From contig JAMWCD010000005.1 of the NCBI GenBank assembly GCA_023818965.1, positions 124,001-188,000 of the forward strand: a stretch of DNA of 64,000 nucleotides, given 5' to 3'. The notes beneath the pieces were generated by a model. It worked only from the letters and a program-made list of their open reading frames with translations. It ran no database searches and was not told where the DNA came from. Every line of letters starts with the position of its first letter. Positions within the stretch are counted from its first letter, which is position 1. Position numbers and translations under genes: made by a program. Shown piece by piece: positions 22,095 to 60,312 of this stretch. Source of the stretch: Candidatus Omnitrophota bacterium (GTDB taxonomy: Bacteria; Ratteibacteria; UBA8468; B48-G9; DTJG01).

Positions 22095-23220
22095 AATATA
22101 CATCTCTACTCTTAATAATATCTATTATGCTATTAAAAGCATACTCTGCTGATTTTCTTCCTTCAGAAGGTTTATATAAGCTAATTAATCCTGCCTCAAT
22201 CAAACTTTTTAAAACATTATTAGCGGTTATTCTATTAGGTATACCTGTTATCTGTATAAAATTTGCAGTGTTTATTATCGGCTGTCTAAAAAACGCATCA
22301 AGAGCAGGAATAGCATATCGAGACTTAGTCGCCTGTATAAATCTATCCTTCATCTCATTATAAAGATTTAAAAGCTTTTGAGCTTTATCAATATTTATTT
22401 TAGCCTGCTGTATAACTGCTGTTAGAAAGAAATCCACCCAACCGCTCCAATCATTATTTTTAGTTATCATCAATAATCTATCGTAATACTCAGTTCTATT
22501 TTTTTCTAAATACTCACTCAAATAAAAACTTGGTCTTGATATTAAGCCTTTCCAATACAAAAACAAAGGAATTATAAGACGTCCAACTCTACCATTGCCA
22601 TCTTCAAAAGGATGAAGAATTTCAAACTGAGCATGCAATAAACCAAGCTGGACTATTTTATCAGGATAATCATCAGATTTTAAAAACCTTTCCCAGTATT
22701 CAAGATGCTCTGGCAAAATAATAGGGTCTGGTGGTATGTATCTTGCATTTTCAATAGAACTACCGGGTGAGCCAATCCAATTTTGCGTCTTTCTAAACTC
22801 ACCAAGTAACCTATTCTCGCCTCTTACACCAGTTAAAAGAATTTTATGGAGCCCTTTTATAAAAGACAGCGATAACGGTCTCCTCTTTATTTCTTCAGCA
22901 CCAGAGAGCAGTGCCTTTTTATAATTTAGCACTTCTTTCCTGTCGTTTCTCTGTGTATCAGAAATCCCTTTTGAAATTATTCCTGCCTCCTCTTGGAGCA
23001 CATCTTCAAAAGTTGCTTGTGTCCCTTCAATTCTGCTTGATAATACTGCCTCATTTGTCATTAATGGTGCAAGTAAAATATCTGGATTTGGCAGTCCTAC
23101 TAAAATTCCATCAAAAAGAGCAATCCCTCTATTTGATTCTCCAATCTTTCGTATAAAAGGTTCTAACTTCAATCCTTTCGGTGGAAATTCAAGAGGAATA
23201 TAAGGTTTTATTTTATTCAT
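22093..23220 (-). CDS. Fic family AMPylase-like protein
   Basis: A 375-aa Fic-domain protein. The catalytic loop [12 protein letters not shown] (203-214) matches the canonical HPFx(D/E)GNGRxxR, and SSRIEGT (61-67) fits the N-terminal inhibitory helix of self-inhibited Fic proteins. The C-terminal part (about 300-375) looks like a winged helix ([16 protein letters not shown]). It probably AMPylates a protein or regulates its own gene. Inserted between hsdM and hsdS, its ATG overlaps the hsdM stop as ATGA and has GGAGG upstream, so it belongs to the operon. Confidence 0.93.
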
Positions 23221-25790
23221 CGGTCCTCCGATTTATTCTTTCCTATATACCCCAATTTTCTTAGAAACTCATCTAATTTTCTAATTTCTTCATCCCTCTC
23301 CTGTTTTATTGCTACCAATGAAATTTTATATTTATCCCATAGGTTTTCAAAGATTTTAATTAGTTCTTTCTTCTCAGCATTTAGATATTTTTCAAGATAT
23401 TGTTTTATGGTTTGATTAAATTTTTCCAGTAGTAATTCTTTTGCTTCTTGTTCTGTTAAAGAGTTTCTCTTTTGGTCAATTTTCCCTTGTGTAACTTTTA
23501 TAGATTGTTTAGTATTTTTATCTTTTTTATATATCCCTTCCAATTCCTGTGTTTTTGCTTTTAATTTCCTTTTCCATTCATTTAACTCCCTACTTTTATT
23601 GTGAATTTTTTCGTGTAGTTGCCATATCTCCACTATAGTTCTTTTTGCCACTGCTGATAGTAGTGCCCCTTTAAAGTTCTTTTCGGCATTAACAAACTTT
23701 TTATTCCATGTTTGCTCTTTGGGCACAAACAAAATATCTTTTATCTGTTCTTTCAGATATTGAGTAACATTTTTTATAGTTTTCTTTCCATAGTCTTCTT
23801 CATCCCAATCCTCTACTTCTTCAAGAAGTTCATTTAATTCACTTTCAAGTTCTGAAATTTTGCTTTCCAGTTCTTCAATATTTTTTAAATCATCTGCAAA
23901 AAATTTTTTCTGTATTCTTTCATCCTCAATAAGCATATTACTCCATCCTGATGAAACAACGGACTTAAAATCGTATTTTAATTCTTCCCACCAGTTGACA
24001 AATACACCAGCAATCTTAAATTCATCAAGAACTCCCAAAGCGAGAATTTTTTCTTTAAGATTTTTTAATGCTTTATTCCTGAATTCCCAGAGATTATTAT
24101 GTCCCGGGAATTTTTCTATTTCTTTTCCAACTTCAAGCCACCATTCCTGCAACTTTTGAAAATGGGCAGAGAATTTATTTTTAACACTATCGGAAGATTC
24201 TATAATCTCTTTTATATCGCTTTTGTCTTTAATATCCCCTCTAAATTCTAAGGTTTTTTCATCTTTTTCTACTAATAAAACATTTGCCGTGAAACCTAAT
24301 TTTTCTATTTGTGCCTTGTAAATTTCAACCTCTTTTTTTGGCACACCTCCTAAAATGTGATAATGAACACATTCCATTTCAGGGTCAGGAGAGTTGTCAA
24401 CATATCTCCGAATATTTAAATTAAAATCATTTTGCTCAATCTCCTTAATATCAACAAGTTTTGAATACTTTGGTATTTCTAACTTTCTATCAAAAACTGT
24501 AACTATTTTCTCAATATCTTCAGGTCTCAAATAATTTTGATTTCTACCTTCACCATATTCTTTATCTGCATTTATGAAAAAGATTTTGTTTTTGAGATGC
24601 TCGGGTTTTCTTTTATTTATCACAATGATGCAAGCAGGTATACCTGTATTGTAAAATAATTTTTGAGGCAAGCCAATAATTGCCTCTATTATATCGTCTT
24701 TAACTATTCCTTCTCTTATTACTTTTTCCTGTCCGCCTCTAAATAAAACACCGTGTGGCATAACACTTGCCATAATTCCATTTTCTTTTAAACTCGCAAT
24801 CATATGCTGTAAAAACATTAAATCTGCTTTCTTTCCTGTTTCAGGAGTAAAGCCGTATTTAAATCTCTGAGGGAATTCCATATTTGCTCTTGTGTAATTC
24901 TGAGAAAATGGCGGATTTGCTAACACTCTATCAAAGCTTTTTATATAACCATTCTCAAGAAATTTTGGAGTGGTAAGAGTGTCTTCATTTTCTATATGGG
25001 CATCTGGAATGTTGTGAAGAATCATGTTCATCTTACATATTGACCATGTAACACCGTTATTTTCCTGTCCGTAAAGAGCTAAATTTGTTGGATTTTGTCC
25101 TGTTGCCTCAACATATTCTCTTGATTCTATGAGAAATCCACCAGAGCCAACAGTAGGATCATAAACAATCATCCCTTCCTGAGGTTTTACAATCCTAACC
25201 ATTAGTGTCTTTACATGTGATGGTGTATAGAATTCTCCACCCTTTTTACCAGCAGAATCTGCAAATTCTTTTAAAAGATATTCATAAGCAGCACCAAGCA
25301 AATCAGGAAATTCAAAATCTTCGTTTCTTAATCTGTACTTATTAAAGTGATGAATTAAATCAACGAGTTGCTGGTCTTTTAGTTTTGTCTTACCTTTCAC
25401 CGCATTGAAATCTATATGCTTCAAAACACCTTCAAGTTCTGGATTTGCCTCTTCCAATGCGGCAAGGGCTTTATTGAGCTGATTGCCAACATCTTCTTTT
25501 AAGTTCAAGATGTTTTTCCATCTTGCTCGTTCAGGTACAAAAAAAGTGTCACCATAAGAATCTGAATCTTCAATTAAATCATCTATTTCATTTTCAGATA
25601 GCCCCTTACTGATGAATTCATTTCTGATTTCTTCCTGCTTAGATTCAAAGACATCTGAGACACGTTTTAAAAAAAGCATGCCGAAAATGTATTCTTTGTA
25701 TTCTGAGGCATCCATTTTGCCTCTTAAAATATCTGCGGCTTTGAACAGGTATGTTTCAAGTTGTTTTAAGGTTAATTTTCCTTCGTTCAT
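23217..25790 (-). CDS. hsdM: Type I N6-adenine DNA methyltransferase with long C-terminal coiled coil
   Basis: Modification subunit, 857 aa. The N-terminal helical domain is followed by the gamma-class methyltransferase core with motif [10 protein letters not shown] (211-219) and motif IV NPPF (292-295), as expected for adenine-N6 methylation. HsdM is usually about 500-530 aa. Here residues beyond about 480 add charged heptad-rich helices ([20 protein letters not shown] and later Lys/Glu stretches) to the end. AAGGATG lies upstream of the ATG. It heads the hsdM-fic-hsdS-hsdR-ygjP unit. Confidence 0.95.
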
Positions 25791-26005: not shown

Positions 26006-26110
26006 TTGCATCCCCTCCTTTCAGGAGGGGAAAGAGGGGAGGTGGCAAAGGGGGACGAAGGGGGATTTAAAATAGTTTCTCCCTTTCACAAACGGAGATG
26101 CAAGAAGGAT
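26006..26110 (+). repeat. Hairpin-rich dispersed repeat, copy B
   Basis: Direct copy of 16646-16750 on the other side of the restriction operon, 9360 bp away, and again followed by an imperfect CCCTCC/GGAGGG hairpin (26136-26161). No coding capacity. The remaining non-coding sequence between hsdM and this copy (25791-26005) is AT-rich with no recognisable gene. Confidence 0.8.
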
Positions 26111-26183
26111 TTTTATCTTTATGAAAAATCCACCCCAGCCCTCCTTTGGAAAAGGAGGGAGATCAGGAGGGGAATGAGGGGGT

Positions 26184-26585
26184 ATTCAAATTCCCTTATG
26201 GAAAAATAAAGGGTGGGTGAGGGGATTTGGCGCCCTCGCCTCCACTACGGCTCGGGTCGCCGTCCGCTGGGATTGCTGCGCCAGCTCGCAATCCCTTACT
26301 TCTCTCCAATTCAAATCCCCTTATGGAAAAATAAAGGGTGGGTGAGGGGATTTGGCGCCCTCGCCTCCACTACGGCTCGGGTCGCCGTCCGCTGGGATTG
26401 CTGCGCCAGCTCGCAATCCCTTACTTCTCTCCAATTCAAATCCCCTTATGGAAAAATAAAGGGTGGGTGAGGGGATTTGGCGCCCTCGCCTCCACTACGG
26501 CTCGGGTCGCCGTCCGCTGGGATTGCTGCGCCAGCTCGCAATCCCTTACTTCTCTCCAATTCAAATCCCCTTATGGAAAAATAAA
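26184..26585 (-). repeat. 125-bp tandem repeat carrying the tRNA-His 3' end
   Basis: Three identical 125-bp units (26211-26335, 26336-26460, 26461-26585) plus a 27-bp partial unit at 26184-26210, abutting tRNA-His. In tRNA sense each unit ends with a copy of tRNA-His from C56 to the 3' end. It also carries an inverted copy of the T-loop/T-stem (for example 26560-26571), a perfect GGGATTGC/GCAATCCC hairpin and the motif GACCCGAGCCGTAGTGG followed by AGGCGAGGGCGCC. It is visibly GC-richer than its surroundings. The open frames inside are repeat artefacts. Confidence 0.92.
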
Positions 26586-26586
26586 G

Positions 26587-26660
26587 GGTGGGTGAGGGGA
26601 TTTGAACCCCCGGCATCCAGAGCCACAGTCTGGCGCTCTATCCGCTGAGCTACACCCACC
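26587..26660 (-). tRNA. tRNA-His (GTG)
   Basis: Full cloverleaf on the minus strand: acceptor GTGGGTG/CACCCAC, the His-specific extra G(-1) opposite C73, D stem GCTC/GAGC, anticodon stem CCAGA/TCTGG with loop CTGTGGC (anticodon GTG) and T arm GGGGG-TTCAAAT-CCCCT. CCA is not encoded. The 3' end faces the restriction island and the tandem repeat. Confidence 0.97.
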
Positions 26661-59889: not shown

Positions 59890-59960
59890 AGTACTCGTTT
59901 TTTGTTGAAAATCTCCGAAAATATGATAAAATTTTATTTAGCCAAAATTTATAATCACAC

Positions 59961-60033
59961 GGGCCGTTAGCTCAACTGGCAGAGCAGGGCACTCTTAATG
60001 CCAAGGCTGGAGGTTCGATTCCTCCACGGCCTA
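59961..60033 (+). tRNA. tRNA-Lys (CTT)
   Basis: Acceptor GGGCCGT/ACGGCCT (G1-U72 wobble), D stem GCTC/GAGC, anticodon stem GGGCA/TGCCA with loop CTCTTAA (CTT), T arm GGAGG-TTCGATT-CCTCC, A73. CCA not encoded. A possible promoter lies upstream: TTGAAA at 59905, then TAAAAT at 59927. Confidence 0.96.
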
Positions 60034-60243
60034 TAGTTCCTTTTAAATTTGGGAGGAATCGAATGGGAGCGAAGATGTATAGGTCTGAGCAAGCGAAGAC
60101 CTATGCGGGTGGTTGCTGATGCGATGAATAAAGAGCATCGTATAGCAAGCCCGCCGAGATGTGAGGCGGGCCGGAACGACCCGAGCCGTAGTGGGAGGCG
60201 AGGGCGCCGATTCCTCCACGGCCTATAGTTCTTTTTAAATTTG
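60016..60243 (+). repeat. tRNA-Lys-linked element with duplicated tRNA 3' end
   Basis: A 36-bp direct repeat with one mismatch (60016-60051 and 60208-60243) starts at C56 of tRNA-Lys. Between the copies, 60052-60063 is a perfect 12-nt inverted copy of tRNA nt 54-65. Hairpins ATAGGTCT/AGACCTAT and GCCCGCC/GGCGGGC follow, then the 32-nt motif (60177-60208) shared with the tRNA-His tandem repeat. No ORF of its own; a minus-strand frame through it is an artefact. Confidence 0.88.
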
Positions 60244-60245
60244 AC

Positions 60246-60312
60246 CTCCCCTGAATCCCCTCCTGAAGGAGGGATGACAGGGGATGTTTATCCCTTCCTG
60301 GAATGAGGGAAT
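60246..60312 (+). repeat. Degenerate copy of the hairpin-rich dispersed repeat
   Basis: Hairpins CCCTCC/GGAGGG inside CCCCTG/CAGGGG, then TCCCTTCC/GAGGGA. It resembles the start and flank of copies A and B (ACCTCCCCT followed by ATCCCCTCCT) but is shorter and more divergent. It adjoins the tRNA-Lys element, as copy B lies near the tRNA-His array. The rest of 60313-60384 holds only the ribosome site of the next gene. Confidence 0.55.

Follow-up and report, generated by a model that had tools for sequence, protein, structure and literature searches.

A gene-less structured element at the T-loop of tRNA genes in Ratteibacteria

The window analysed here, a stretch of 64,000 nucleotides of contig JAMWCD010000005.1 from a Candidatus Omnitrophota bacterium (Ratteibacteria in GTDB), contains two tRNA genes that are followed by the same kind of noncoding unit. 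The gene for tRNA-Lys(CTT) occupies positions 59961–60033 (+), with T54-T55-C56 at 60014–60016 and bases 57–73, the proximal copy, at 60017–60033. A sigma-70-like promoter (TTGAAA-16-TAAAAT, 59905–59932, +; a consensus match only) lies 28 nt before it. Downstream on the same strand are a T-rich linker (60034–60051), a guide antisense to tRNA-Lys bases 54–65 (60052–60063, GGAGGAATCGAA), and the element core, beginning with GGAGCGAAG (60066–60208). This core is a long variant, in which two extra hairpins (about 60114–60172) are located between hairpin P2 (about 60074–60107) and hairpin P3 (about 60176–60208, ending GGCGCC); the usual core is about 80 nt long. The single unit is followed by a distal copy (60209–60243, +) made up of bases 57–73 (60209–60225) and then the first part of the linker with one substitution. 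Because a promoter-like site is present upstream and no terminator-like site was found between tRNA-Lys and the element, the latter is probably a 3′ trailer within the tRNA-Lys primary transcript.

The second host gene, tRNA-His(GTG), is encoded on the minus strand (26586–26659, base 57 at 26603). It bears three tandem units of 125 nt each (26479–26603, 26354–26478 and 26229–26353, −), the first consisting of tRNA bases 57–73, a linker, the guide GGGGATTTGAA, a core and a terminal GCC, and a truncated fourth unit (26183–26228, −) that contains bases 57–73, the linker and a guide with one change. The original prediction had described a common layout at both loci, and this was found, with the proposed shared 31-nt motif at 60178–60208 (+) and three times at tRNA-His (26229–26258, 26354–26383 and 26479–26508, −) where shuffled sequences lead one to expect none. 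What had been taken for a single duplication at tRNA-His proved to be the array. The folding energy of both loci was below that of all 200 shuffles. Palindromic GGAGGG/CCCTCC repeats resembling REP sequences follow the elements in the window (26040–26180 and 60243–60310) and at many loci of relatives. A long open reading frame with an N-terminal sequence like that of type I restriction methylases (HsdM; 23217–25790, −) adjoins the tRNA-His array.

The 31-nt motif forms the right-hand terminus of a small noncoding element. The plan of the locus, in 5′-to-3′ direction, is intact tRNA, a T-rich linker of some 10–25 nt, guide, GGAGCGAAG, P2, AGCGG, P3, GCC or GCTC, and tRNA bases 57–73 again. The distal bases 57–73 are often followed by a further linker and guide, or by whole extra units. 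The unit encodes no protein, and the repeats enclose no gene. The right end is invariant, with P3 followed by GCC or GCT(C) and then by base 57; in the class ending in GCTC, T55-C56 is consequently repeated as well. Most copies bring with them a repeat of 17 nt or more that covers tRNA bases 57–73, and owing to this duplication of the 3′ end the host tRNA gene stays complete.

The core is a conserved folded structure. P3 showed compensatory changes at columns 70–95 (55 CG, 11 GC), 72–92 (57 CG, 9 TA) and 76–88 (35 CG, 20 GC, 8 TA), while the counts for P2 were weaker on a single alignment because this hairpin occurs in two length registers. A second, longer type of structured unit was seen within or next to the same tRNA loci (L092, L094, L012, L013, and L150, the last being tRNA-Lys of genome G005), with a GGGAAAAG..CTTTTCCC-like hairpin, GTAGT, GGGGGGA and AAGAGCGAAG; at tRNA-Val its junction with the tRNA lies in the variable loop. 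At tRNA-Val of G000 (L060:950–1201), a hairpin inserted precisely behind the T stem interrupts the distal copies in two tandem units.

Copies were located with a covariance model of the core (R1). The genome under study contains 15, and nine of its 30 tRNA genes bear the element, seven of these loci lying outside the window. All 15 motif hits fall within 650 nt 3′ of a tRNA gene on the same strand (0.7% expected per hit), in agreement with the predicted association of the motif with tRNAs. In the relative G007, at least 17 of 44 tRNA genes are occupied; 24 of its 29 copies lie 3′ of a tRNA, and most of the others are found where contigs end or belong to a chimeric Ser gene described below. Up to 33 copies were counted in a congener, and the model detected the element in 18 of 28 genomes of the order and 21 of 35 genomes of the phylum. 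About 30 isoacceptors serve as hosts across this one phylum, with up to about 40% of a genome's tRNA genes occupied and entry exactly between bases 56 and 57. The same layout recurs in another family of the class (L206–L208). In L206 (G031) the unit is enlarged by several extra hairpins inside the core, as if other small repeats were nested there.

A motif scan of 84,980 species returned 37 hits, all in metagenome-assembled genomes of the Omnitrophota/Ratteibacteria type, some of them labelled only as 'bacterium'. An exact-pattern scan of 2.9 million viral contigs gave no hit, and a viral carrier was set aside on this count. Contigs often break inside the element, as they would if it were an assembly artefact or a chance repeat; this explanation can hardly be credited, as the same structure occurs, with compensatory changes, in independent assemblies of many projects.

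Empty sites in relatives, which the original prediction had proposed to look for, were found at tRNA-Ser(CGA) and tRNA-Lys(CTT). The tRNA-Ser(CGA) gene is empty in G002 and filled in the near-isogenic G007, where a 281-bp insert sits at C56|A57 with a 19-bp repeat (GAATCCTGCTCTCTCCGCC); the flanks are identical at 324 of 330 and 399 of 400 positions (98–99.8%). This pair shows one precise insertion or one precise excision, and a loss in G002 fits as well as a gain in G007. Beside one and the same metallophosphatase gene, tRNA-Lys(CTT) is filled in G000, G001, G005 and G007 and empty in G003, G004 and G006, the repeats being 17 and 19 bp. The prediction of one noncoding family with a constant terminal motif, edges derived from the host tRNA and entry exactly at C56|A57 agrees with what we found. 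Neither result named in advance as telling against it, hits lying largely away from tRNAs or other copies duplicated from a different point, was obtained. Our preferred reading, held with modest confidence, is that this is a protein-free, structured, tRNA-specific mobile element which inserts between bases 56 and 57, is moved in trans and is possibly guided by base pairing.

The relationships among copies point to more than movement. Of 40 simple cores from the genus, 19 had their closest relative within the same genome (shuffles 6.3, maximum 17), a point for the mobile reading, and the similarity of linkers was greater between genomes at one and the same tRNA (0.68 versus 0.58). Cores that follow the genome and linkers that follow the tRNA locus suggest intragenomic homogenisation or core replacement and not only fresh insertion, and the likeness of linkers by locus suggests that many copies are old residents with converted cores, which speaks against the mobile reading. 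The same pattern, in which linker and guide follow the tRNA locus, would be expected of an ancestral trailer feature that is only decaying, is kept uniform by gene conversion and no longer transposes, and precise loss by recombination between the repeats would be easy. We nevertheless consider this distinctly unlikely, since the occupied tRNAs, of about 30 kinds, vary in their combination, a single site can hold tandem units whose cores differ, and guides fit their hosts at nearly all of these tRNAs; all this would demand an ancestor in which almost every tRNA already bore the element.

The inverted copy of the T arm that had been noticed at the two loci is present generally and could be narrowed to the guide, a stretch of roughly 10 nt antisense to host bases 54–63 and sometimes extending to base 65. 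The fit of the guide to its own host over bases 54–63 was perfect in 62 of 76 units, compared with a mean of 22 and a maximum of 35 in within-genome shuffles. Mismatches are mostly one or two changes and are concentrated in one genus (G008, G009); a recurrent variant ends in GAGAA and leaves bases 57–58 unpaired. Where tRNA-Lys(CTT) of G005 has GACTCC in place of GATTCC, both the guide and the distal copy follow the change. The earlier notion that the element copies host sequence at its edges thus holds as to the origin of the edges, and resolves into two different things, a repeat of bases 57–73 that resembles a target-site duplication and an antisense guide that fits the host. For the fit we favour a mixture of target choice by pairing, selection, and template switching between short inverted repeats. 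Such switching, with the homogenisation that it causes, is a known replication error according to PMC7202029 and PMC8604942.

The duplication had been proposed to begin at C56. The T-loop position was right, but the repeat begins one base further on, at base 57, and the C before it belongs to the terminal GCC of the element. When right ends were anchored on the core and not on the repeat, all 97 continued with base 57; bases 57–63 were perfect in 91 of them and bases 64–73 in 77, the other 20 being damaged in the latter segment. An early assumption, that base 73 is always the last of the repeat, had to be given up, as the repeat is often longer and sometimes, at array ends, shorter. In 47 of 76 loci it extends past base 73 into linker and guide, which is more than a simple short target duplication and counts against the mobile reading. 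In these 47 loci, which were chosen for a repeat with at most two mismatches in 15 and are thereby mildly biased toward conservation, linkers differed at 49 of 883 positions (5.5%), as against 0 of 329 for bases 57–63 and 1 of 470 for bases 64–73 (Fisher 2e-8).

Distal copies are hence better preserved than one would expect of a repeat without use, a further point against mobility. Conservation of bases 57–63 is expected if they pair with the guide in a stem that closes the core. That of bases 64–73 is left unexplained by such a stem and is the main support for a different view, namely that the element is a functional RNA of the tRNA trailer, long established in the phylum and active in processing, self-cleavage or regulation. 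Pairing of the guide with the proximal or the distal bases 57–63 would then act as a switch, and the distal bases 57–73 would be used, for instance as a tRNA 3′ half once the unit between C56 and A57 had been removed. The conservation of the structure throughout the phylum and the perfect 57–63 segment in nearly all anchored ends are in line with this. It is at odds with the restriction of the element to nine of 30 and at least 17 of 44 tRNAs in sets that vary among close relatives, with the complete tRNA already provided by the proximal copy, with the damage to distal bases 64–73 in 20 of 97 ends, and with the lack of any fitting Rfam ribozyme or intron family. Another possible cause of the conservation of the repeat is renewed insertion at the site, by which bases 57–73 would be recopied from the tRNA. 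We regard a trailer function, the chief rival of the mobile reading, as possible rather than probable.

One further observation bears on a trailer function and speaks in its favour. In four genomes from two families (G002, G007, G010, G012) a tRNA-Ser(CGA) gene is interrupted after base 53, in the T arm, by CTGAAATAC...ATTTCAG and a core; base 57 onward stands behind the core and is followed by a terminator-like hairpin and, where the contig continues, directly by an intact tRNA-Ser(CGA) (examples are L166:518–760 of G007, L090, L209 and L211). Similar chimeric forms exist at tRNA-Val in G024. The left hairpin of the chimeras is not copied from the host, so that the hairpin itself seems to matter. 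The chimeric genes may be source genes or a side product. In another genome, an ordinary group I intron (L071:550–792, G008; Rfam RF00028, 100.7 bits) resides in a tRNA gene, apparently tRNA-Asn, with a T-loop element downstream.

If the element is mobile, as we prefer to think, its movement might be pictured as follows. The RNA would fold as a three-way junction closed by pairing of the guide with the distal bases 57–63. The same guide could pair alternatively with tRNA bases 54–63, and this pairing would select T-arms as targets for a mobilising enzyme acting in trans. After entry into a new tRNA, template switching from one inverted repeat to the other (quasipalindrome correction) may erase guide mismatches that are left. 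Tandem units could arise from slippage or re-insertion, and loss could occur through recombination between repeats. The element might even be a mobile RNA guided by base pairing: being complementary to the joined tRNA across C56|A57, the guide would pick T-loops as targets and also align the two tRNA halves, and the unit would leave the transcript as an intron or circle, with the distal bases 57–73 completing the tRNA and no protein of its own being needed. This variant appears unlikely to us.

Candidate movers were sought in draft genomes of 54–96% completeness and among a few protein families; none emerged, which weighs against the mobile reading. Reverse transcriptase (RVT_1) was detected in two of the 28 genomes of the order, G019 with the element and G022 without it. 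Reverse transcription is unlikely because none was detectable in the genus and family of the window, and retrotransposition was rejected. Y1 transposases (IS200/IS605, REP) were absent from the element-rich but incomplete drafts G000, G003, G007, G008 and G010, Cas1, as in casposon- or CRISPR-like insertion, from the likewise incomplete G008, G015, G019 and G024, and IS110 transposases from most element-rich genomes, including G000, G004, G005 and G008. Tyrosine recombinases (PF00589) number about two per genome, a Xer-like figure, with or without the element. None of these four was retained as mover, their presence being uncorrelated with that of the element. A protein outside the families listed could be responsible. 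A further point against mobility is that neither a copy at a clear distance from any tRNA nor a relative with genes came to light.

The 3′ ends of tRNA genes are classic landing sites of integrases, and entry at the T-loop with restoration of the 3′ end is typical of these enzymes. The unit might accordingly be a remnant or satellite of a site-specific integrative element with the tRNA 3′ end as att site. We consider this very improbable: tyrosine recombinases occur in the same number regardless of the element, no gene lies between the repeats, and the attachment sequence would differ for each tRNA while the rest was common.

Rfam, searched at gathering and relaxed thresholds, yielded no ribozyme or intron family that fits the element. 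A weak antisense hit to BjrC68 (22.8 bits against a cut-off of 39) was judged to be a chance resemblance of GC-rich hairpins. The group I intron model (Intron_gpI), which scores 100.7 bits on L071, misses the element. The proposed three-way junction is similar in topology to a hammerhead ribozyme and lacks the conserved hammerhead bases. As to HDV-like ribozymes, no Rfam family was matched, and Rfam 15 may hold no theta-specific model. Of the features by which MITEs are recognised, a target-site duplication with an empty site was found (the 19-bp repeat with G002 empty; 17 and 19 bp at tRNA-Lys); usual terminal inverted repeats were not seen, nor was an autonomous relative among the loci covered. 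As far as the tests reached, the element does not fit an assembly error, the remnant of an att site, a group I intron or a known ribozyme, and a MITE derived from a known transposon seems a poor match among these loci.

If it is truly the guide that chooses the target, the unit would represent nucleic-acid-guided mobility in minimal form; should the trailer be functional, the phylum uses an undescribed tRNA-processing or regulatory RNA. No element of some 125 nt and without genes is known to us that sits at one T-loop bond in a large share of a genome's tRNAs and has antisense fitted to each host. Among the titles and abstracts returned by literature searches, none joined Ratteibacteria and tRNA or dealt with a noncoding element of the tRNA T-loop.

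With MITEs and small noncoding bacterial repeats the element shares shortness, lack of genes, palindromic structure, presumed mobility in trans and a target repeat; it differs in its single exact site in the tRNA T-loop and its host-fitted antisense guide, and neither the usual terminal inverted repeats nor a parent transposon were seen. Like tyrosine-integrase islands it enters inside a tRNA gene and restores the 3′ end, whereas it measures about 125 nt, has no integrase, occupies up to 40% of the tRNA genes in one genome and contains antisense specific to each host. Theta ribozymes, which are HDV-like and follow the 3′ ends of phage tRNAs (PMC10879173), are also structured RNAs directly downstream of a tRNA, in the trailer; our element belongs to bacterial chromosomes, has the repeat of tRNA bases 57–73 and the guide, and matches no Rfam family. 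Retrozymes (PMC4918200) are likewise small noncoding units with tandem copies and a folded RNA, but the element has no known ribozyme motif and the genomes of its genus and family are without reverse transcriptase. Group I introns in tRNAs, finally, have in common with it the location in tRNA genes and an internal guide complementary to the flank junction, in the same geometry; the element has no group I core, and the tRNA is complete before the element begins.
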